This document shows positions 7,980-51,869 of a DNA stretch of 64,000 nucleotides, one piece after another; the stretch's first letter is position 1, and each line of letters begins with the position of its first letter. The stretch covers positions 51,421-115,420 of the IMG/VR virus record IMGVR_UViG_3300017917_002116, one strand, 5' to 3'. A program made the translations under genes and the position numbers. Source of the DNA: a virus. The notes beneath the pieces were generated by a model. It did not search any database. It saw only the letters and a program-made list of their open reading frames with translations, and was not told the origin of the DNA.

Positions 7980-7993
7980 TCATATAACCAATA

Positions 7994-8050: not shown

Positions 8051-8297
8051 ATGTCGTTCCCATCAAGTCCTAGTAACGGTGATCAAGCAACAGTCGGTGG
8101 TATACTCTATCAGTATAGCAGCACTACAATATAGTATCAACACTAATTTACTTGGTACATTGACAACAAGTGCCCTGATAACTACATTTGTGCTGACAGT
8201 GGATAAAAGACTAACTATTTCAACATCTGACGCACTAATTGACCCGGCAGTTGTTAACCCCGAGCAGGCCTACCTGACAGACTCAACTTCTGGTTAA
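8051..8297 (+). pseudogene. Frame-broken small fibre gene, remnant or frameshifted
   Basis: From the ATG at 8051 (AAGGA upstream) the reading MSFPSSPSNGDQATVGGILY is a standard start of T4-like fibre genes, but TAG stops it after 27 codons. A +1 shift near 8129 enters an open frame to 8297 (SINTNLLGTLTTSALITTF and on to YLTDSTSG), giving a coherent composite of about 81 aa. This is either a decayed fibre gene or a frameshift-expressed small protein. It occupies most of the 427-nt gap between genes at 7980-8406; the rest holds late boxes at 7994 and 8341 and nothing else I can identify. Confidence 0.5.
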
Positions 8298-18871: not shown

Positions 18872-20083
18872 ATGAAACGAACAGTAAAACAAATTGAACA
18901 CGGCAAGACTGCATGGCGATTTGCCGATCCAGTGAAGCCACTGCATAATCGAAATGTCGACGCTAAACAACTGGGTGATGAGCCGCAGTACCCCGACGTC
19001 AAAGTGCAAGATGAGTGGACTCACAGTGAGTACACTTCCAAACTGATGCGTAGTCTTAACTGGTATAACGCCACGCAGGATTACAAGACTTCTTATTCTT
19101 GGCTTAGCCAATTCCTAGAGCGTAATCCACGTAGGCATCTCCTGGCGGCCGCCATCAAGAGCGGTGACGTTCGAGTACCTCCTACTATTGGCTTTGCCCT
19201 ACGTGCCGGCCGAGTAGGCATGAAACTGCGATTCCAGACACTTAGGTCTGTGGTGCGTATCCTGCGAGAGTCACAGGTAGAAAAAGAAGCCAGTATCCTG
19301 TCACCTGCCAAGGAGAAAGCAGAACAGGAAGAAGTCAAAGTAAAAACACCCAACATCCAGGATCGTCTTGCAGAAAAGGCCCGTGAAGCCGCAGGTGAGA
19401 TCGAAGGACGTTTTGACGACTTTATCACCACCAATGAATTCAAAGGTGACCCCAAAGCCGTTGAAGTGTTGAGCCAGTTTAACGTGCAGCCTGCTCACGT
19501 TAAAACCATTCTGTCACTGGCAGATCGACGTCTTGCCGAGTATAATGAAGTACTTGCAGGCAAAGATGGACAACTGGTTGAAGCATACAGCCACTATGGC
19601 AAGCGTCAACTTAATGCTGTCGTCAAATGGTGGCAACAGGTCATTGCAGACTGCAATAGTTATGGTGTGATCAAGAAAGCCAGCAAGGCACCGCGTAAGA
19701 AGAAGGCAGTGCCTCCGGAAAAAGTCGTGAGCAAGATGAAATTCCTCAAGGAATTCGCCGAGCTCAAACTGAAGAGTATTGATGCCACGCAGATTCTGAC
19801 TGCACAAGAACTCTGGATCTATAACACAAAGACTCGCAAACTCGGCATCTACATTGTAGACCAATATGCAGGTGCACTGGGTGTCAAAGGCACAACCATC
19901 CTGGGCTTTGATGCGGTGGCAAGTGTGCAGAAGACTCTACGCAAACCTAAAGAACAACTCAAAGAGTGGGCCAGCAACGGCAAGCCCGCGGCAAAGAAAT
20001 GGTTTAAAGGTGTTAAAAGTGTGGAGACCAAGCTCAACGGCCGTATCAATGCGGATATGATCCTGCTGAAAGCCTACAAATGA
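18872..20083 (+). CDS. Conserved T4-like phage protein, unknown function
   Basis: The 403-aa product is basic and mostly helical, with a charged coiled-coil-like middle (about 130-185) and a Lys-rich segment at 265-285. Its C-terminal part (ELWIYNTKTRKLGIYIVDQY, then KGTTILGFD and KTLRKPKEQLKEWA) resembles an uncharacterised protein I recall from marine T4-like phages. The basic character suggests nucleic-acid or ribonucleoprotein binding, but no fold is recognised. Its stop overlaps the lipoprotein start (ATGA), so the two are translationally coupled. Confidence 0.7.
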   Translation: MKRTVKQIEHGKTAWRFADPVKPLHNRNVDAKQLGDEPQYPDVKVQDEWTHSEYTSKLMRSLNWYNATQDYKTSYSWLSQFLERNPRRHLLAAAIKSGDVRVPPTIGFALRAGRVGMKLRFQTLRSVVRILRESQVEKEASILSPAKEKAEQEEVKVKTPNIQDRLAEKAREAAGEIEGRFDDFITTNEFKGDPKAVEVLSQFNVQPAHVKTILSLADRRLAEYNEVLAGKDGQLVEAYSHYGKRQLNAVVKWWQQVIADCNSYGVIKKASKAPRKKKAVPPEKVVSKMKFLKEFAELKLKSIDATQILTAQELWIYNTKTRKLGIYIVDQYAGALGVKGTTILGFDAVASVQKTLRKPKEQLKEWASNGKPAAKKWFKGVKSVETKLNGRINADMILLKAYK

Positions 20084-21222
20084 AGCGAACGTTACTCGCA
20101 CTAGCGGTTGCCGGCTTCCTTAGCGCATGCGGTGGGGGAGGCGGCACAGCAGAAGCGATACCTATTAAGCAACCTGCCGATCTTGGCATCGCATGTACAC
20201 AAGCAACGGATTCTAATTATCTAGATATACCCCCAATTTATAAATTCGGAGGCCTACTCAGTAATTGGTCAAACGGTGATAGTGTGCCAGGCAAGTTAGA
20301 TGGAGAACATTTTACATGGGCAGTATCTAATTTTAGTGCTATTGCTAGCGAACAGAATAATTCAGTACTGAAATCTAGGATTACAACTAGTATCCATCGT
20401 TGGGCGCAAGCAGATGCTTATCAAGGCAGTCGTTGGTGTTGGTCTCCTAGTAAAGGCTGGGACTCTGCTTGTACACAATGGGTTGATCCAAACGGCAACG
20501 ATTTTAGTGCTATTCAGGATCAAGGATATATCCAACAAAATGTAGAAGCAATACGTAGAGCCTATGCTTTGATATCAGATTGGGCAAAAGTCAATGAGCC
20601 CGCCAAGCATGCTAAAATTACCAATTGGTTGAGCTATTTTGAAGTTAATAGCCCTCCGCCTGACAGGGTGTTTTTTGGTTTGGGCATGGGAAGATATCAT
20701 TGGAGGATACAACAGGTCAGTGACACAGCCGGCCCGGCCGCCACAGTGCCTCTGGTACGCAACCTCTTGGATGGTATTCTACCCCTAATCAATGATGATG
20801 GTTCAATTGCTGAACGGACCTCCAGGGGTAATAGGGCAATGTGGTATCATTATACTTCATTAAATGAAATAATGACATCAATGTACCTGGCCAAACAGGT
20901 AAATGTTGCAATTAATCCTCTGTTAGAAACAAGACTGCACAAAGCCGTTGAGCTTTTTCTGAACACATTGGACAATCCTGCTTTTATTATTCCTTGGGCA
21001 CGAGCAGGTTATAATAACGGCGGTGATGGGTCGACACAGAATTTTAATTTTAGCAACTGGTACAATGACCCCTATGCAGGTTCTTGGGTATATCTATACA
21101 CTAATTGGTATCCCGCCCATGCTAATACACCAAGGTTGAAACAGAAGGTACCCATGGGATCAACTACATCTGCATCCTTGGACACACAATTTGGTGTCCC
21201 ATTAGGTTGTACTCTGTATTAA
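20080..21222 (+). CDS. Exported lipoprotein with alginate-lyase (PL5)-like domain
   Basis: Residues 1-17 form a lipoprotein signal peptide with lipobox LSAC (Cys17) and Gly at +2, which in Gram-negative hosts favours the outer membrane. A Gly-rich linker leads into an about 340-residue helical domain. The segment RGNRAMWYHYTSLNEIMTSM (249-268) closely matches the conserved RGKRALxYHN region of AlgL-type lyases, keeping Arg, Tyr and His. The GMGRYHW segment (202-208) sits where AlgL has its Asn-His-x-Tyr-Trp motif, but the Asn-His pair is not cleanly kept, so activity is uncertain. It may act on host exopolysaccharide or alter the cell surface during infection. It closes the early operon that starts at 18100. 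Confidence 0.65.
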   Translation: MKRTLLALAVAGFLSACGGGGGTAEAIPIKQPADLGIACTQATDSNYLDIPPIYKFGGLLSNWSNGDSVPGKLDGEHFTWAVSNFSAIASEQNNSVLKSRITTSIHRWAQADAYQGSRWCWSPSKGWDSACTQWVDPNGNDFSAIQDQGYIQQNVEAIRRAYALISDWAKVNEPAKHAKITNWLSYFEVNSPPPDRVFFGLGMGRYHWRIQQVSDTAGPAATVPLVRNLLDGILPLINDDGSIAERTSRGNRAMWYHYTSLNEIMTSMYLAKQVNVAINPLLETRLHKAVELFLNTLDNPAFIIPWARAGYNNGGDGSTQNFNFSNWYNDPYAGSWVYLYTNWYPAHANTPRLKQKVPMGSTTSASLDTQFGVPLGCTLY

Positions 21223-41299: not shown

Positions 41300-43366
41300 A
41301 TGAAACTCCGTCCTACTCTTATTGCACTTGCAGTATCAGCGATAGCAGGAAGTGTGCAGGCACAGGTCTTTACCAATCAGGAAACTGTTGCTAAGACAAA
41401 TTACCTGAATGCTATTGGTGCACCGGCAGCATGGGCCCGTGGCATTACAGGTAAAGGAGGTGTGATCGCAGTTCTGGATAATGGTTTTGCTGTCAATCAC
41501 ACCGACATTAAACCCAACGTCCTTGCCTACAAGAATTTTTATGTAGGCGACACCTACACATGGGGCTTGCATGGAACGCAGATGGCCAGCATTGCCGCAG
41601 GCGTAGCCAACGGCGCAGGCACTGTGGGCGTGGCACCCGACGCTAAATTGATTCTTGGACAAGTCGGTACTGGCGGAACCAGTCCCAGCATCGACATGAA
41701 TGCAGTTATCAAAGGTATGACCTGGGCTGAAGGTCTCGGTGCTAATGTTATTAACCTGAGTCTTGGTAGCAACTATGACTCTACGTTCAAGGCAGGCACT
41801 ACGCAGATTGCTCCTGGTATTTTTAAGTCTGCTCCTGGTTACGGCACTATGTATGGTAACAGCCTGACTGACATGCTACAATTTACCGGTGCCACAAAGA
41901 GCACTGTGATTGTTGCCAGCGCAGGTAATAGTGCCACACCTTATGCTCAATTTCCTGCGGCATTCGCAGTACAAACGGACGCTAATGGCAATTTGATTAT
42001 GGGCGGCCGAGTGCTGATCGTTGGTAATGTCAAGTCAGATGGCAAGGGCGGCTGGGTTATGGATGCTAGCAGTAATCGAGCAGGCACCCTCTGCCAGAAA
42101 ATTGTTGCCAATGTTTGTCAAGACAAATACTATGTCAAAGACTTCTACGTCGTGGCTCCTGGAAATGCCATCTGGGGCGCAGTACCTGACGAAGCACGAA
42201 CCGCGACTGCTATCAAAGCAGGTCTAACTAATGGTGTTGGTGGCGTAACAGGAACCAGTCCCAGTGCCGCGTTGGTTAGTGGCGGCATCGCGCTCATGCG
42301 CCAGGCCTGGCCGCAACTCAAGGCAGCACAATTGGTTAATCTTGTTTTAGACACTGCTACTCCTCTCGGTGACAGCAATGTCTACGGCAAGGGTATGGTG
42401 AACTTTGACAAGGCAACGCAACCTACAGCAGGCCTGAAATACACCACTGCTAGCCTTACTTCAGGCCCTACAGTGTCTGGTACTAGTGTACAAAACACAG
42501 GTGTTGCAGTATCAGGTAATGTAGGGGCCGCACTGAAAACCAGTAGTGTGTTGCAGAGCGTTCAGGTGGTTGATGGTTTGAATCGTAACTTTACCGCAGA
42601 CTTTACCAAGGCAATCGGTGTTAATACTCCTGCAAATAGCCTTTACACTAGTCCCTATCTTGCAATGCAGAGTTTGGGCTACAAGGAATTCACTGTGCCC
42701 ATGGGCAAGGATAGTACTCTGACATTGATGCAGAGTTTTAATGGTGTAGCGGCACAATATGAAACTGGTTACAAGGAAGGTCGTATTAGTTTCCAGACCG
42801 GTACTATGACTGAACGCAACGGTTTCTTGAATAACTCTGGTACAGGCCTGTTTGGTATGGGCAATAGTGCTACCAGCTATGCAATGATCGGTGGTAGTTA
42901 CCCCATTGTTAGAAGTGTGGATCTGATCGGAAATTATGGTGTTGGTATTACTCGCACTAGTAACGCACAAGATAGCATGCTGGCCCTGAGCCCTACAATT
43001 ATCAGCGATACCTGGAAACTGGGTATTGCCAAGAAGGAGATCTTCTTCAGCGGTAGTACACAAGATCAACTGACCTTGGCAGTGCATGGACCGGTGGCAG
43101 TGCGTCGTGGTTCTGCAGACGTGACCGCTGTGACTGGCTACACTTATTCAGGTGCAGAAGATGATGTGACTGCCAATCCGATTATCAGCAAACAACGAGT
43201 CAACCTTGCGGCAGGACAACGCCAACAAGATCTGATTCTGAGCTATAGTGTTAGTGTAAGTAATAAGACTTATGCTGGTATCAGTGTTGCCAAACAGTTT
43301 AATGTTGGTGGTATCGGCGGACAAACTGGATCGGCATTTGGTCTAATGGTGCGTAGTGTGTTCTAA
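41300..43366 (+). CDS. Secreted subtilisin-like (S8) serine protease with a C-terminal outer-membrane-like domain
   Basis: The 688-aa product begins with a Sec signal peptide (MKLRPTLIALAVSAIAGSVQ, cleavage expected after Ala21). The S8 catalytic triad is complete: Asp60 (GGVIAVLDNGF), His91 (GLHGTQMASIAAG) and Ser320 (GTSPSAALVSGG), with the oxyanion Asn210 (VASAGN). Residues about 385-688 are beta-rich and end in GSAFGLMVRSVF, with a terminal Phe as in outer-membrane barrels and autotransporters; the fold is inferred. The ribosome site AAGGA precedes the ATG. It would be exported by the infected host cell and could act on surface or extracellular proteins. A phage virion role is less likely given the signal peptide and early-type promoters. 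Confidence 0.85.
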   Translation: MKLRPTLIALAVSAIAGSVQAQVFTNQETVAKTNYLNAIGAPAAWARGITGKGGVIAVLDNGFAVNHTDIKPNVLAYKNFYVGDTYTWGLHGTQMASIAAGVANGAGTVGVAPDAKLILGQVGTGGTSPSIDMNAVIKGMTWAEGLGANVINLSLGSNYDSTFKAGTTQIAPGIFKSAPGYGTMYGNSLTDMLQFTGATKSTVIVASAGNSATPYAQFPAAFAVQTDANGNLIMGGRVLIVGNVKSDGKGGWVMDASSNRAGTLCQKIVANVCQDKYYVKDFYVVAPGNAIWGAVPDEARTATAIKAGLTNGVGGVTGTSPSAALVSGGIALMRQAWPQLKAAQLVNLVLDTATPLGDSNVYGKGMVNFDKATQPTAGLKYTTASLTSGPTVSGTSVQNTGVAVSGNVGAALKTSSVLQSVQVVDGLNRNFTADFTKAIGVNTPANSLYTSPYLAMQSLGYKEFTVPMGKDSTLTLMQSFNGVAAQYETGYKEGRISFQTGTMTERNGFLNNSGTGLFGMGNSATSYAMIGGSYPIVRSVDLIGNYGVGITRTSNAQDSMLALSPTIISDTWKLGIAKKEIFFSGSTQDQLTLAVHGPVAVRRGSADVTAVTGYTYSGAEDDVTANPIISKQRVNLAAGQRQQDLILSYSVSVSNKTYAGISVAKQFNVGGIGGQTGSAFGLMVRSVF

Positions 43367-44199: not shown

Positions 44200-45654
44200 A
44201 TGACATCTTGTACTATACATATTCGTGACGAAGTCAATATCAAAATATCAGGACTAGAAGTTAGTACCAGGAGAAAACTAGAGAAGGCGTTAAAGTATTT
44301 TATGCCCTATGCCTACCACACACCAGCATATAAACTAGGACGCTGGGACGGCTGTGTAAGTTATTTTTCTCTTGGTGGCGCTAGCTACTTCAATTTGTTA
44401 GATCGAATTCTGCCTACTATAGTAGACGAAGGCTACAAGGTAGAGGTAGATGACCAACGTTCTGCTTGGAATTTCGAATTTCCAGAAGTGTGCGAAACAA
44501 CACATGAGCAGACATTATGGCCCAAAGGTCACCCTGCCGCAGGCACACCAGTTCTTTTACGTGACTATCAAGTCACCGCCGTGAATCAGTTTCTAAAGAA
44601 TCCGCAGTGTGTTCAAGAGATTGCCACTGGTGCAGGTAAAACTGTGATGACTGCTACATTGAGCAAGTGTGTAGAAGGCTATGGACGTAGCATTGTGATT
44701 GTACCCAACAAGGATCTGGTAAAACAAACTCTAGAAGATTATGAGCTATTGGGACTGGATGTTGGTGTATATTTTGGTGACAAAAAAGAGCTAGGAAAAA
44801 CACATACCATTTGTACATGGCAAAGTCTGCATAGCCTTCAAAAACGATTCAAGGAAGGTGACAGCCCCATTGGACTGGACGAGTTCGCTGAGGACATGGT
44901 GGCGCTGATTGTTGACGAAGTGCACCAAGCCAAAGCAGATGTACTCAAACAATTACTCAGTGGACCATTTGCACATGTGCCCATACGCTGGGGACTAACA
45001 GGTACCATACCCAAAGAGGAATTTGAGCGAATTGGTCTGGTGGCATGTATAGGTAATGTGGTAAATAAGATTGCAGCCAAAGATCTTCAGGACCTGGGAG
45101 TACTTGCAAACTGCCAAGTAAATGTGTTACAATTACAAGATACCGTTGAGTATCCTACCTACCAGGAAGAATTAACTTATTTGACCACCAACACCAAACG
45201 CATAGATTTTATTGCAGAGTTTATAGATAAACTGTCTGCATCCGGCAATACTCTTGTGTTAGTGGATAGGGTTAAGTGTGGTGAGATGCTCTGTGAGAGA
45301 ATACAGGACGCTGTATTTGTTAGTGGTACAATGAAAACAACAGACAGAAAAGAGCACTACGATGAGATTAAAGAATCTGATGGCAAGGTTATTGTGGCGA
45401 CTTATGGTGTGGCCGCTGTGGGTATTAATGTTCCTCGTATTTTTAATTTGGTTCTTCTGGAGCCCGGAAAGAGCTTTGTCCGCGTTATACAAAGCATTGG
45501 GCGAGGTATTAGACGAGCTCAAGACAAGGACCATGTAGAAATCTGGGACATAACCTCCAGTGCAAAATTTAGTAAACGTCACCTTACCACCAGAAAAAAA
45601 TATTATGAAGAAGCCGGATATCCCTACAAGGTTGAGAAAGTTAGACACCAATGA
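44200..45654 (+). CDS. uvsW: Superfamily 2 helicase, T4 UvsW-like
   Basis: The 484-aa product has an N-terminal DNA-binding domain (LEVSTRRKLEKALKYFMPYA, then YKLGRWDGCVSYF). The helicase motifs follow: Walker A ATGAGKT (142-148), motif II DEVH (239-242), motif III LTGTIP and motif VI QSIGRGIRR. UvsW unwinds R-loops and branched DNA and helps switch from origin to recombination-dependent replication. No Shine-Dalgarno site is present, since the -10 box abuts the start. It overlaps the next gene by 4 nt and leads a six-gene operon. Confidence 0.93.
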   Translation: MTSCTIHIRDEVNIKISGLEVSTRRKLEKALKYFMPYAYHTPAYKLGRWDGCVSYFSLGGASYFNLLDRILPTIVDEGYKVEVDDQRSAWNFEFPEVCETTHEQTLWPKGHPAAGTPVLLRDYQVTAVNQFLKNPQCVQEIATGAGKTVMTATLSKCVEGYGRSIVIVPNKDLVKQTLEDYELLGLDVGVYFGDKKELGKTHTICTWQSLHSLQKRFKEGDSPIGLDEFAEDMVALIVDEVHQAKADVLKQLLSGPFAHVPIRWGLTGTIPKEEFERIGLVACIGNVVNKIAAKDLQDLGVLANCQVNVLQLQDTVEYPTYQEELTYLTTNTKRIDFIAEFIDKLSASGNTLVLVDRVKCGEMLCERIQDAVFVSGTMKTTDRKEHYDEIKESDGKVIVATYGVAAVGINVPRIFNLVLLEPGKSFVRVIQSIGRGIRRAQDKDHVEIWDITSSAKFSKRHLTTRKKYYEEAGYPYKVEKVRHQ

Positions 45655-46153: not shown

Positions 46154-46654
46154 ATGGCTAGGCAAAAAACAGCAGGCGAAAAGCCCAAGTTAGATATGTT
46201 TAACAAGATACTGCCGGGCATCGACCGCAGGGATCGTAGTGTTTATGCAAACTTAAACGAAGATGAACGCAAGGCATTTGGCGCATGGCTAATCATGCGT
46301 TATATGAGCAGTGCAGAATATAGTAGGGCAGATGTAATTGAGAGATATCTAATATGCACTAATGAAGCAGTAAATGTAAATTTTAGTGACATAAAAGATG
46401 ATGAGTTCAAATGGTTGCTGATGACCACCGTGGGGTGTGGGGCAAGTATTAAGCATCCATATATTGCACCAGGTGGTGGCAAGCGCAAGAAGAAAAATCA
46501 TTTTCGTGAATGGCTGCGAGAACAATATCCACATTTAGACGATCAAGAGCTAGATCTAATGATGTCTAACATGGATAAACATATAGCCAAAGACATACTG
46601 GAACAGTTTCAGGTAAAAGATAAAGATATTATTGATAGTGCAAATGACCTATAA
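46154..46654 (+). CDS. 62: Probable sliding-clamp loader small subunit (gp62-like)
   Basis: The 166-aa helical product has the segment pattern I associate with phage clamp-loader A subunits: KAFGAWLIMRYMSSA, YLICTNEAVNVNF, DEFKWLLMTTVGCG and a basic linker (PGGGKRKKKNHFREWLREQY). In T4, gp62 joins gp44 to load the gp45 clamp; no gp44 or gp45 lies in this window. The identification is by loose resemblance and context only. The next gene starts inside its last codons. Confidence 0.45.
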   Translation: MARQKTAGEKPKLDMFNKILPGIDRRDRSVYANLNEDERKAFGAWLIMRYMSSAEYSRADVIERYLICTNEAVNVNFSDIKDDEFKWLLMTTVGCGASIKHPYIAPGGGKRKKKNHFREWLREQYPHLDDQELDLMMSNMDKHIAKDILEQFQVKDKDIIDSANDL

Positions 46655-47321
46655 GTGTAAATTTTGCAAAAAAGAATTCGTCAGAGAAACAACTTTGGTC
46701 AGCCACCTTTGCGAACAAAAGCGCAGAATAGCAGCCAAAGATGACAAACAAAATAGAATAGCATATTTAAGTTGGTTGACATTTAGAAAGACCACCATAG
46801 CGAATACTAAAAAAGATAAACCCTACGAAGATTTTGCCACCAGCAGATACTATACTGATTTCATGAAATTGAGTAAGTATATGATAGAACTTAAATTAGA
46901 CTGTGATGACTTTATAAAGTTCTTACTCAAGCATAGTGTAAAAATGTCTGACTGGACAAAGAATTTTGTCTACGAAGAATACGTGCGTGAAAAATTAAAG
47001 AAGGAAACGGTGGAACGTGCAGTAGAGAGAAGTATTCTGCACATGAAAGAATGGGCCGAAAAGACAGGCGGCAGTTGGGAAGAATATTTTGCCAAAGTAC
47101 CACCAGCGCAGGCAGTACATGATTTTAAAACAGGCAGGCTAAGTCCCTGGTGTACTTTCGCCACAGACCAAGGTAGTAGATTGATAGATAGACTCGAACC
47201 AGGTCAGATCACTGACCTTATTGAATTTTTAGACGCCAAGCCCTGGAGGGCTCGTGTAAAAAGACAGGCAGCAGACGCAGCCTGGGTGCAACTAGTTTTT
47301 AACAAAGCAGGAATACTATGA
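46644..47321 (+). CDS. Zinc-finger protein, conserved phage type
   Basis: Start set at ATG 46644 (MTYKCKFCKKEFVRETTLVS), 11 nt inside the previous gene; an upstream TTG would lengthen the overlap. The N-terminus is a C2HC-type finger: Cys-x2-Cys (KCKFC), then His-x-Cys (SHLC). The rest (225 aa in all) is helical and basic, with PWCTFATDQGSRLIDRL near the end. A nucleic-acid or replisome-binding role is inferred from the finger and the operon. It overlaps the next gene by 4 nt. Confidence 0.7.
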   Translation: MTYKCKFCKKEFVRETTLVSHLCEQKRRIAAKDDKQNRIAYLSWLTFRKTTIANTKKDKPYEDFATSRYYTDFMKLSKYMIELKLDCDDFIKFLLKHSVKMSDWTKNFVYEEYVREKLKKETVERAVERSILHMKEWAEKTGGSWEEYFAKVPPAQAVHDFKTGRLSPWCTFATDQGSRLIDRLEPGQITDLIEFLDAKPWRARVKRQAADAAWVQLVFNKAGIL

Positions 47322-47545
47322 ATCAATATGCAGAAAAACCTAGGGTAGCGGCATTACTACGCTCGCCCATCAAGGAGAATTCAACAGCCAAGGTTGTTAA
47401 TGGCATGGTGGAGATAATCATTGATGGCGAACGAGTACTTGCACCCAGCATGGAGGCCTTTGCCAAGTTAGCAGCCAAGGTGGCCAGTCTGGAACAACGA
47501 CTAAACAATGTAGAAAATAAAACTAATAGGGTTAGGCGCGAATGA
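47318..47545 (+). CDS. Small coiled-coil protein, unknown
   Basis: The 75-aa product has a short beta segment (VVNGMVEIIIDGERVLAPSM) followed by a coiled-coil helix (LAAKVASLEQRLNNVENKTN). It overlaps both neighbours by 4 nt (ATGA), typical of stoichiometric partners. No family recognised. Confidence 0.65.
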   Translation: MNQYAEKPRVAALLRSPIKENSTAKVVNGMVEIIIDGERVLAPSMEAFAKLAAKVASLEQRLNNVENKTNRVRRE

Positions 47546-48105
47546 GCACAGATATTGATATAGACTTTGCAGATAGAGAACAAGTACTCAAGGTCTTAAA
47601 GCATACACCTGCAATGCAGATGGATGGGAATAAACCACGCAAACATAATACAGGTGTTTACTTTCATCATGTACCACTGAATCCATTTACTGGATTGAGC
47701 ACTCTTGATTATAAACAGGCAGAAGAAGAGGGTTGGTTTAAAATAGACCTGCTTAATGTAGGCATATACACAGATTTTAAAAGCAATGAAGAAATTGATG
47801 AGCTTTTAGAAAAAGAACCCGTATGGGAAATGTTGCAACACAGGGAAATAATTGAGCAATTATTTCACATACATAATCACGCAGACACGGTGATTAAAAT
47901 GCGGCCCACAAGTATAGAGCAGTTGGCCATGGTCCTGGCCTGTATACGTCCAGGTAAACGGCACCTAATAGGTAAATCCTGGGCGGAGATTGAACGTGAA
48001 GTTTGGGTTAAAACTGATGATGCTTATAGTTTCAAGCAAAGTCACGCTATTGGGTATGCTGTGGCTATTGTGCTACAGATGAACAAAATGGCTTATAGTT
48101 TTTGA
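47542..48105 (+). CDS. Miniature DnaE/PolC-like protein (C-family polymerase palm motifs)
   Basis: In only 187 aa this protein keeps, in order, the main signatures of bacterial DNA polymerase III alpha. TDIDIDFADR (Asp6 and Asp8, matching the catalytic DxD) comes first, then HNTGVYFHHVPL (like HAAGVVI), GWFKIDLLNVG (Asp69, like the third catalytic Asp in KFDFLGL), SIEQLAMVLACIRPG (like the RPG segment) and SFKQSHAIGYAVA (like FNKSHSAAYA). Exonuclease PHP, tau-binding and OB regions are absent. Similar proteins occur, as I recall, unnamed in marine T4-like phages. Whether it polymerises, binds DNA ends or decoys a host factor is unknown. It sits in the UvsW operon near primase and helicase. 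Confidence 0.7.
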   Translation: MSTDIDIDFADREQVLKVLKHTPAMQMDGNKPRKHNTGVYFHHVPLNPFTGLSTLDYKQAEEEGWFKIDLLNVGIYTDFKSNEEIDELLEKEPVWEMLQHREIIEQLFHIHNHADTVIKMRPTSIEQLAMVLACIRPGKRHLIGKSWAEIEREVWVKTDDAYSFKQSHAIGYAVAIVLQMNKMAYSF

Positions 48106-48461
48106 ACTAACTGAATTTGTCTGCGTTTAATTCTTTTTGTTATTATATTTTGTAGGCTAACGGGTATACCGTGAATAATGTCGAAGTCTTTTACATTAAA
48201 TGTTTTAAGACAGTAACTTAATTGTTTGAATCTGGGGCCTATGACGAGATTAATGGGGAGAGTTCTACTACTGCCCCACCACCATTCTTCCCCGAGTTCT
48301 AGAAATAATTGTTTGTCGTCCTTGCCCTGCAGGTTGTTATAGACATAAACGCTAGCTATGGTAGTGGTATAATTCTGAATTATGCCCAAAAACTCCTCTT
48401 CGCCGCTCTTACACAAACTCAAAAATGGGAATTTTTCTAATATTTCGTTATGGTTCGCCAT
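48093..48461 (-). CDS. Unknown minus-strand late protein
   Basis: The 122-aa product (MANHNEILEKFPFLSLCKSG...) is a mixed alpha/beta protein with IVRR-like basic end (TKRIKRRQIQLVQKL). It converges on the miniature DnaE-like gene with a 13-nt overlap of their ends. A minus-strand late box lies 6 nt before its ATG, so its mRNA should have a leader of about 1 nt. No family recognised. Confidence 0.6.
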   Translation of the reverse strand: MANHNEILEKFPFLSLCKSGEEEFLGIIQNYTTTIASVYVYNNLQGKDDKQLFLELGEEWWWGSSRTLPINLVIGPRFKQLSYCLKTFNVKDFDIIHGIPVSLQNIITKRIKRRQIQLVQKL

Positions 48462-49288: not shown

Positions 49289-49309
49289 GTAAGGCTATGA
49301 TGGCCTTAC
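49289..49309 (+). promoter_or_regulatory. Hairpin with the primase start codon in its loop
   Basis: GTAAGGC (49289-49295) pairs perfectly with GCCTTAC (49303-49309), and the 7-nt loop TATGATG contains both candidate ATG codons (49297 and 49300). No Shine-Dalgarno site is visible upstream, so the hairpin may present or restrict the start codon. Confidence 0.6.
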
Positions 49310-50268
49310 AAAATCTACTACGCAGCAGACTAAATGGTAGGACCAGCCCCAAGGGTTGGGTATCATTCAACTGCCCCATGTGCGTGGTAAATGGTCAAAG
49401 TCGTCCTGATACTAGACATCGTGGCGGCGTAATGTACAATCCTGATGGAGCAGTGAGCTATCACTGTTTCAACTGCCATTATAAAACTAGTTGGCAACCA
49501 GGTAGAACGCTGAGCTTTAAGATGCGTAAACTGCTCAGGCAATTGGGATTTGACGAAGCAGAGATACAGCGACTGAATCTAGAACTGCTGAGCCAAGCAG
49601 ATATAGAAAATATCAAGTTTAAAGAACCAGAACCCACGTGGACACCTGATTGGCCTGATTTTGAATTTGGGTTTGATGTAAAACAGTTAACTAGTCACGA
49701 CAAAGTAGATTATTTGGAAAGCAGACAGATTTACAACCTAGCCGTGTGGTTGGAGACGGACTATAAAGATCGCGCCTTTGACCGCAGGGTTATACTGCCC
49801 TATACATACGAAAATAGACTAGTTGGTTATGTGGCAAGGTGTGTAGGCGATATGCCGCCAAAGACAAGCAAATATATACGCAAGGCGCCTGCTGACTTTG
49901 TCTATGGACTGGATAATCAAAGAGATCAAAGACAATTTGTTATTGTTAGCGAAGGGGAATTTGATGCACTGCTTACATCTGGACTTGCCATTGGTGGTAA
50001 CAATTTAAGTGATAGGCAGGCACAGTTGATTGAGGACTTAAACATAGAGCCCATAGTTATTCCAGACAGAGACTCCGCTGGTAGACAACTGGCAGAACGT
50101 GCGGCAGATTTTGGCTGGAGTGTAAGTTTTCCGGATTGGGAAGATTGCAAAGACGTGACCGATGCTGTATTAAAATATGGCAGGCTGTTTACTATACATA
50201 GTATCCTACAGGCCGCAGAACACAGTCCTACAAAAATAAGATTATTATCTAGGAGGCTTGGTGGATAA
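49297..50268 (+). CDS. 61: DNA primase, T4 gp61-like
   Basis: The 323-aa product has an N-terminal zinc-binding domain with Cys26-x2-Cys29 (CPMC) and Cys57-x2-Cys60 (CFNC). A TOPRIM-type catalytic core follows, with VIVSEGEFDALL (acidic motif) and VIPDRDSAG (the DxD motif). It lays RNA primers for lagging-strand synthesis with the gp41 helicase encoded just downstream. The start is at 49297 or 49300, both in a hairpin loop. It overlaps the next small gene by a few bases. Confidence 0.9.
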   Translation: MMALQNLLRSRLNGRTSPKGWVSFNCPMCVVNGQSRPDTRHRGGVMYNPDGAVSYHCFNCHYKTSWQPGRTLSFKMRKLLRQLGFDEAEIQRLNLELLSQADIENIKFKEPEPTWTPDWPDFEFGFDVKQLTSHDKVDYLESRQIYNLAVWLETDYKDRAFDRRVILPYTYENRLVGYVARCVGDMPPKTSKYIRKAPADFVYGLDNQRDQRQFVIVSEGEFDALLTSGLAIGGNNLSDRQAQLIEDLNIEPIVIPDRDSAGRQLAERAADFGWSVSFPDWEDCKDVTDAVLKYGRLFTIHSILQAAEHSPTKIRLLSRRLGG

Positions 50269-50476
50269 TTACGGATATGAGGTACGCAAAGACTGGCGGC
50301 TTGGCCAGAACACAGACGATTGGTGGACCAGCGTATGTGTATGGGTCATTGAACAATTTGGCATGCCCGGGGACAATTATATCACAGAGTTAAGTAGTGA
50401 GTACATGATTTTTAAATTTAAGCAAAAAGAACACGCAATGATAACAGCCTTGCGTTGGGGGAATGACAATGGCTGA
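50261..50476 (+). CDS. Small conserved-type protein between primase and helicase
   Basis: Start set at GTG 50261, because AGGAGG (50251-50256) lies 4 nt upstream; a TTG at 50258 is too close. The 71-aa product (MDNYGYEVRKDWRLGQNTDD...) contains WWTSVCVWVIEQFGMPGDNY and KFKQKEHAMITALRWGN. From memory, similar small proteins are encoded next to primase in marine T4-like phages. It is coupled to gp61 and gp41 by overlaps. Function unknown. Confidence 0.65.
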   Translation: MDNYGYEVRKDWRLGQNTDDWWTSVCVWVIEQFGMPGDNYITELSSEYMIFKFKQKEHAMITALRWGNDNG

Positions 50477-51869
50477 TGAAGTTAAAGAATATAGCACAGA
50501 ATTACAAAAACTATTTTTGGAGTTTTTGATCAGTGATAAGGAACTGTTGGCTCGTTGCCAAAACGTTTTAGATGATACACATTTTACTCGTAGCCTGCAG
50601 GCAACTGCTGCCTTTATCAAGGACTATGCAAACAAATACAGTGACTGCCCAACCACAGAACAAATACAGGCAGTCACAGGTCTAGACATTAAACCTATAC
50701 CTGCGGAAGTTACCAACCACAAGGATTGGTTTCTAGAAGAATTCGAACAATTTGCTAGACACAAAGCACTTGAAAAAGCCATTCTTAAAAGTGCAGACCT
50801 GCTGGACAAGCAACGCTATGGCGAAGTTGAGCGATTAATCAAAGATGCCAGTAGCGTAGGCCTGCCCAAGAGCTTTGGTACAGACTATTATGCTGACCCC
50901 ATGGAACGTTTGACCAAGTTAAAGAACCAAAATGGTGGTACAAGTACAGGCTGGAAGACCATTGACGACAAACTGTATGGTGGTTTCAATCGCGGCGAAC
51001 TTAATATATTTGCTGGTGGATCTGGTGCAGGCAAATCATTGTTCTTGCAGAACTTGGCACTGAACTGGAGTCAGATAGGACTCAATGGAGTTTACTTTAG
51101 TCTTGAACTTAGTGAAGGTCTGTGTAGTATGCGTATGGATGCCATGCTTATGGGCATTGCAACTAAAGAAATTTATCGCAACTTAGAAGATGTTGACCTT
51201 AAGGTTAGGATGAAAGGTAAGACTGCGGGTAAGATACAGATTGTACAACTTACAGCAGGTGTAACAGTAAATGATCTTAAGAGTTGGCTTAAAGAGTTTC
51301 AGATACAGAGTAATAGAAAAATTGACTTTGTTATTGTGGACTACCTAGACTTGATGATGCCAGCAAGCCAAAAGATCAGCGTGGCAGATTTGTTTATCAA
51401 AGACAAGCTAGTATCTGAAGAGTTACGTGCCATGGCCACACAAGGCAATTATCTATTCTGCACAGCAAGTCAGTTGAATAGAGGCGCCGTGGAAACAGTG
51501 GAGTTTGATCACAGTCATATTTCAGGTGGCTTGAGTAAGATTCAGACTGCTGACAACGTGATTGGTATCTTTACCAGCACAACAATGCGTGAGCGAGGCA
51601 GAGTTCAGTTACAGTTTATGAAGACTCGTTCAAGTAGCGCAGTTGGTACTAAAATAGAGCTAGAGTTTAATGTAACTAGCCTGCGTATCACAGACCTTGG
51701 TGAAGACTCTGCAGACGCACCAACCACAACAGATGTATTAACTGAACGACTTAAAAGATCCAGCACAACCATTGATAGGGAAACGGGCGAAGTTGTAGAG
51801 CGCCGCCCCGAGCCCGCAATGGCTATCAGAGGCATGGACGACAAAATTAAGAAAATGCTTCAGAAGTAA
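50469..51869 (+). CDS. 41: Replicative DNA helicase, T4 gp41-like
   Basis: Start set at ATG 50469 (MADEVKEYSTELQKLFLEFL), 7 nt after GGGGG; the ATG at 50463 is too close to that site. The 466-aa product is a DnaB-type helicase: N-terminal helical domain (DCPTTEQIQAVTG), linker, Walker A GGSGAGKS (183-190), Walker B IDFVIVDYLDLM and the C-terminal CTASQLNRGAVETVEFDHSH, ISGGLSKIQTADN segment. It forms a hexamer on the lagging strand with the gp61 primase. Confidence 0.95.
   Translation: MADEVKEYSTELQKLFLEFLISDKELLARCQNVLDDTHFTRSLQATAAFIKDYANKYSDCPTTEQIQAVTGLDIKPIPAEVTNHKDWFLEEFEQFARHKALEKAILKSADLLDKQRYGEVERLIKDASSVGLPKSFGTDYYADPMERLTKLKNQNGGTSTGWKTIDDKLYGGFNRGELNIFAGGSGAGKSLFLQNLALNWSQIGLNGVYFSLELSEGLCSMRMDAMLMGIATKEIYRNLEDVDLKVRMKGKTAGKIQIVQLTAGVTVNDLKSWLKEFQIQSNRKIDFVIVDYLDLMMPASQKISVADLFIKDKLVSEELRAMATQGNYLFCTASQLNRGAVETVEFDHSHISGGLSKIQTADNVIGIFTSTTMRERGRVQLQFMKTRSSSAVGTKIELEFNVTSLRITDLGEDSADAPTTTDVLTERLKRSSTTIDRETGEVVERRPEPAMAIRGMDDKIKKMLQK

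Follow-up and report, generated by a model that had tools for sequence, protein, structure and literature searches.

A 187-residue phage protein as the C-terminal half of a split miniature Pol III alpha, probably one part of a two-protein nucleotidyltransferase

Introduction

What is a protein of only 187 residues that carries the palm motifs of a bacterial replicative polymerase, and what might it do for a phage? The question is raised by a gene in a 64,000-nucleotide stretch of viral DNA (the window), which is part of a virus record of 115,420 bases (IMGVR_UViG_3300017917_002116, here the 115-kb fragment). Iyer et al. (2021; PMC7824862) reported split minimal Pol III alpha proteins from jumbo phages of "group 2.2", and 51.9% of one cluster of marine jumbo phages have the PF07733 domain (PMC9123017). 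Already in 2017, a truncated Pol III alpha of 172 aa was noted in phage CBB (PMC5259590); judging by its record position (242989-243483), it is probably the N-terminal half (N-half) of such a pair. A search of the literature found no experimental study of the split mini Pol III alpha. Our analysis places the window protein in this family, which was described in 2021 and is common in large T4-like phages, as a new member. It adds the exact seam between the halves, conservation at the level of residues, a measure of how much thumb and fingers have shrunk, and a corrected assignment of the catalytic aspartates.

Results

Homology to the palm of DnaE

The gene and its product are as follows.

47542..48105, + strand: C-terminal half (C-half) of a split mini Pol III alpha, 187 aa (phrog_11778, PF17657, Foldseek, hhalign)

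The open reading frame is real and its translation is as first described. Residues 3-183 match phrog_11778, annotated "DNA polymerase" (E 1.1e-65), and identity to the members in Phosso, PA5oct, Atu_ph07 and 121Q is 38-52%. Members of the family occur in 90 isolate-phage records and in no fewer than 595 IMG/VR stretches. The first-pass annotation had expected unnamed relatives in T4-like phages. They exist, but they are not unnamed, since PHROG 11778 is called a DNA polymerase, several GenBank records are labelled DnaE-like, and two papers discuss such proteins (PMC5259590, PMC7824862).

As a single query, the window protein retrieved nothing useful from Pfam, NCBIfam or the PDB, so that profiles and fold were needed to establish homology to DnaE; matches to the estrogen receptor in the single-sequence PDB search were due to chance. 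Eleven of 16 family members matched the DnaE finger domain PF17657 (best E 6e-5), and hhalign of the family against a DnaE profile, the kind of comparison that the first-pass annotation had proposed, gave E 1e-5 over residues 33-139. A search of PDB sequences with the family profile gave weak Pol III alpha matches in four stretches, in the correct order. An AlphaFold2 model built on a 57-sequence alignment had a pLDDT of 90.5. In a Foldseek comparison of this model with the PDB, ranks 1-13 were all Pol III alpha, with probabilities up to 1.00 and modest E-values (best 6e-3), which identifies the palm fold of Pol III alpha in the C-half, and the top-ranked matches in BFVD were phage DnaE proteins. 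The claim of homology to the DnaE/PolC palm is therefore borne out by PF17657, hhalign and Foldseek together. Bacterial DnaE was represented in our comparisons by plasmid-borne proteins; a search of genome contigs with a phage query found no bacterial DnaE.

Active-site residues

Five motifs had been reported in DnaE order, and this order was confirmed, with DIDIDF at residues 4-9, HNTGV at 35, KIDLL at 67, RPG at 136 and FKQSHA at 164.

47551..47565, + strand: DxDxD strand with Asp4, Asp6 and Asp8 (invariant in 91/91; strand E5-9 in the model)
47644..47670, + strand: HNTGVYFHH, corresponding to DnaE HAGGV at residue 511 (hhalign; His35 and Gly38 invariant in 91/91)
47740..47763, + strand: KIDLLNVG with Asp69, corresponding to DnaE KFDFLG with Asp555 (Lys67, Asp69 and Leu71 invariant in 91/91; strand E68-72)
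47938..47955, + strand: ACIRPG, corresponding to DnaE ALFRPG (Arg136-Pro137 in all complete members)
48031..48060, + strand: FKQSHAIGYA, corresponding to DnaE FNKSHAAAYS (start of a long C-terminal helix)

When the protein was shuffled 300,000 times, no ordered pattern of this kind arose, and a slightly looser form of it is present in 90 of 91 relatives. As reference for the positions of DnaE motifs we used a plasmid-borne Catenovulum DnaE (GPGRGS 359, RFLNP 390, DFDVDF 401, HAGGV 511, KFDFLG 553, RPG 639, FNKSH 756), with which the E. coli numbering agrees at residue 393. The catalytic aspartates of E. coli Pol III alpha are Asp401, Asp403 and Asp555. From the DnaE numbering of RFLNP, DFDVDF and KFDFLG, their counterparts in the window protein are Asp4, Asp6 and Asp69. 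The earlier statement that the catalytic aspartates are retained thus stands, but the trio named there (Asp6, Asp8, Asp69) does not, Asp8 being a further invariant aspartate. All four positions are D in each of the 91 distinct sequences, and His35, Gly38, Pro45, Ala60, Lys67 and Leu71 are equally invariant. By their match to Pol III alpha, the three catalytic aspartates would be expected to cluster in the fold.

Segments lost relative to DnaE

The interval between DxDxD and HxxG, which in DnaE holds the thumb, measures 31 residues against 110 in DnaE, and that between RPG and SH, which in DnaE holds the later fingers with the QEQVM and MGKK motifs, 28 against 117. The C-half consequently has neither a thumb nor most of the fingers, both finger motifs lying in the lost stretch. 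Deletions of this size could suggest a decayed, functionless remnant of a host-derived dnaE. This reading is in practice refuted by hundreds of phages in which the frame is intact, the catalytic residues are invariant and the gene order is conserved.

In every DnaE read, the GxGRGS triphosphate loop is within the same site as the aspartates. It is absent from the C-half, so that loop and aspartates are not found in one chain.

A second protein with the missing loop

In 121Q, Phosso and Atu_ph07, the sole PF07733 match lies elsewhere in the genome from the C-half gene, in an N-half protein. N-half proteins measure about 175-180 aa and end, in these three phages, in "...ELDFDEFLN". GxGRGS is present in all 80 IMG/VR copies of the N-half. 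By hhalign, the N-half aligns with DnaE 318-394 (E 2.4e-9), the alignment ending at FLNP, and the top six PDB matches of its model (pLDDT 84.8) are Pol III alpha.

In sequence, the two proteins almost abut. Every N-half examined ends at the DnaE "FLN", 1-4 residues past the EFL motif, and all C-halves but one start 1-8 residues ahead of DxDxD; in intact DnaE, 8 residues separate the two motifs. These complementary ends indicate that the cut puts triphosphate loop and metal ligands on different chains, with almost no loss at the seam.

The first-pass annotation had suggested, among other roles, a minimal nucleotidyltransferase. A complete enzyme of 187 aa that needs no partner would be compatible with the presence of all three metal-binding aspartates and with the confident monomer model. 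The complementary cut and the location of GxGRGS on a separate protein, which accompanies the C-half in 8/8 genomes, make a stand-alone enzyme very improbable and point instead to one half of a split enzyme.

Some annotations near the two genes deserve mention. In RefSeq, the Atu_ph07 C-half (YP_009611739.1) starts at locus position 8067, past the catalytic DIDID. An in-frame ATG at 7986 restores the motif (L016:7986-8561), so that the annotated protein is N-terminally truncated. In Phosso, a GroES-like gene (Cpn10, E 7e-6) follows closely downstream of the N-half gene; similar ORFs of 108-111 aa have the corresponding position in 121Q and Atu_ph07 (L019:2226-2576, L020:2163-2489 and L021:744-1079, Phosso included).

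Co-occurrence of the halves

The N-half was present in all eight isolate genomes with a C-half that were examined. Conversely, the C-half was present in 10/10 IMG/VR records longer than 220 kb that had been found by their N-half (two of which are once more 121Q and Atu_ph07), and in one of seven shorter ones. Between the two genes lie 15 kb or more; in 121Q, Vibrio 2.275, XaC1 and PA5oct the distance is 30-44 kb. Distances among N-halves correlate with distances among C-halves (r = 0.77 for 17 pairs, reached in 0 of 10,000 permutations, computed without a control gene), which is consistent with co-inheritance; co-inheritance alone would correlate the distances without any contact between the proteins.

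In the 115-kb fragment and the contigs of ten relatives, a 3-row profile did not detect the N-half, nor did a 54-row profile that works on the eight genomes detect it in the 115-kb fragment. This may be because only 16 kb of the record follow the C-half. A T4-like family B polymerase was found in all three relatives tested (121Q, Phosso and Atu_ph07), and not within the 115-kb fragment.

Gene neighborhood

The C-half gene is surrounded by genes for SSB, UvsX, UvsY, UvsW, primase, DnaB helicase, exonuclease and the large terminase subunit, and the neighborhood is a T4-like replication and recombination cluster.

44200..45654, + strand: UvsW-type DNA helicase (phrog_16, E 6e-73)
46632..47321, + strand: conserved 229-aa protein, phrog_11058, with a zinc-finger-like CxxC...H...C at its N-terminus
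47318..47545, + strand: 75-aa ORF with a weak match to phrog_34730
48093..48461, - strand: convergent 122-aa ORF, phrog_11637
49297..50268, + strand: DNA primase (phrog_47, E 1e-31)
50463..51869, + strand: DnaB/gp41-like replicative helicase (phrog_19, E 5e-67)

The proximity of UvsW, primase and DnaB to the C-half gene is conserved in the isolate relatives read. The 75-aa ORF overlaps the start codon of the mini-Pol gene by 4 nt (ATGA), which implies translational coupling, and short ORFs are similarly placed in 121Q, Phosso and Vibrio 2.275. Several relatives have an upstream ORF comparable in size to the phrog_11058 protein. The phrog_11637 gene, whose tail overlaps that of the mini-Pol gene by 13 nt, is convergent with it in most isolate relatives read; an antisense or regulatory relation between the two is possible.

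Further from the mini-Pol gene, the window contains three genes that are noted here for their own sake. An isocitrate lyase, an enzyme of the glyoxylate shunt, is encoded directly behind NrdA in this jumbo-phage fragment (61834-63039, + strand; PF00463, E 2e-101; no match in a PHROG search at E 0.001). A subtilisin-like S8 protease (41300-43366, + strand; PF00082, E 6e-32), unusual within a phage replication cluster, has a signal-peptide-like start and an autotransporter-like C-terminus ending in Phe. A putative lipoprotein (20080-21222, + strand) has a marginal alginate lyase match just above the cut-off (PF05426, E 4e-5).

Discussion

Together, our data identify the window protein as the C-half of a split mini Pol III alpha, and make it probable that the pair acts as a single nucleotidyltransferase for short synthesis. 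The C-half would contribute the palm strands with the metal-binding Asp4, Asp6 and Asp69, as well as a short remnant of the fingers. The helices before these strands, and the GxGRGS loop for holding the triphosphate of the dNTP, would come from the other phage protein, which measures about 175 aa and is encoded elsewhere in the genome. Both proteins would associate non-covalently and thereby rebuild one Pol-beta-like nucleotidyltransferase site. We infer this assembly, as well as its catalytic activity and its task in the cell, from the homology of each half, the invariant catalytic residues, the complementary cut, the co-occurrence of the halves and the gene context.

That both halves of the active site are conserved speaks for a catalytic enzyme made of two proteins. 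Processive synthesis is disfavored by the loss of thumb and fingers, and a replicase role is unnecessary in the presence of a family B enzyme. Even ordinary polymerisation by the split pair is doubtful, as thumb, QEQVM and MGKK are all gone. The conserved place of the C-half gene next to those for primase, DnaB and UvsW hints at synthesis of short stretches, either at primers or on recombination intermediates. With thumb, most of the fingers and all accessory domains of DnaE absent, and with a T4-like family B polymerase in these phages, the most likely role would be short extension of 3' ends, in primer maturation or in recombination and gap repair.

The same losses, and the other replicative polymerase of this phage group, could also be explained if the assembled pair were not a polymerase at all, but a regulatory or clamping subunit that binds nucleotides or DNA, or a decoy for replisome proteins. 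We consider this unlikely, as the three aspartates (91/91) and GxGRGS (80/80) are invariant down to about 37% identity, which fits catalysis and not mere binding. For the primer-end binding factor or decoy of host replisome proteins that had been suggested earlier, we found no evidence.

A bolder version of the two-protein enzyme can be put forward only tentatively. The Pol III core in two chains, some 360 residues in all, thumbless and nearly fingerless, might be a working enzyme with a job of its own, such as the maturation of primers between primase and family B polymerase, and a living model of an ancestral C-family nucleotidyltransferase.

Compared with the split mini Pol III alpha of Iyer et al. 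(PMC7824862), the window protein is of the same size and likewise represents the C-terminal, Mg2+-binding half. In their system the N-half is encoded far away and a family B polymerase occurs in the same phage group, two traits unseen in the 115-kb fragment; we found no difference in kind. Bacterial DnaE (PF07733, PF17657) and the mini form have in common the order of palm and early-finger motifs, the three catalytic aspartates and the fold (AlphaFold2/Foldseek). They differ in that the mini form consists of two chains of about 187 and 175 aa, whereas DnaE has roughly 1160, and lacks the PHP domain, the thumb, the QEQVM and MGKK finger segments, the HhH and the C-terminal domains.

Should the two halves make up an active enzyme, a C-family polymerase core would exist that is much smaller than DnaE and divided within its own active site. 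Its place of work would be phages already equipped with a family B replicase, so that the bacterial and the archaeo-eukaryotic logic of replication would be mixed. The family is widespread, and the exactly complementary cut opens the way to a direct test by reconstitution from the two proteins.

A fracture at this place occurs beyond the miniature form too, since the two-gene DnaE of Tenacibaculum phage Larrie (ON950054; L195:3646-7226) is broken at the same position of PF07733 (positions 98 and 100), between FLN and DIDSDF. Unlike the mini form, the Larrie enzyme is full-size, with PHP, fingers and HhH, its genes are adjacent, and there are extra residues at the break. These amount to about 56 at the end of the first gene; they have no Pfam intein match and, judged by eye, bear a faint resemblance to Hint/intein sequences, so that the Larrie fracture may stem from a split intein.
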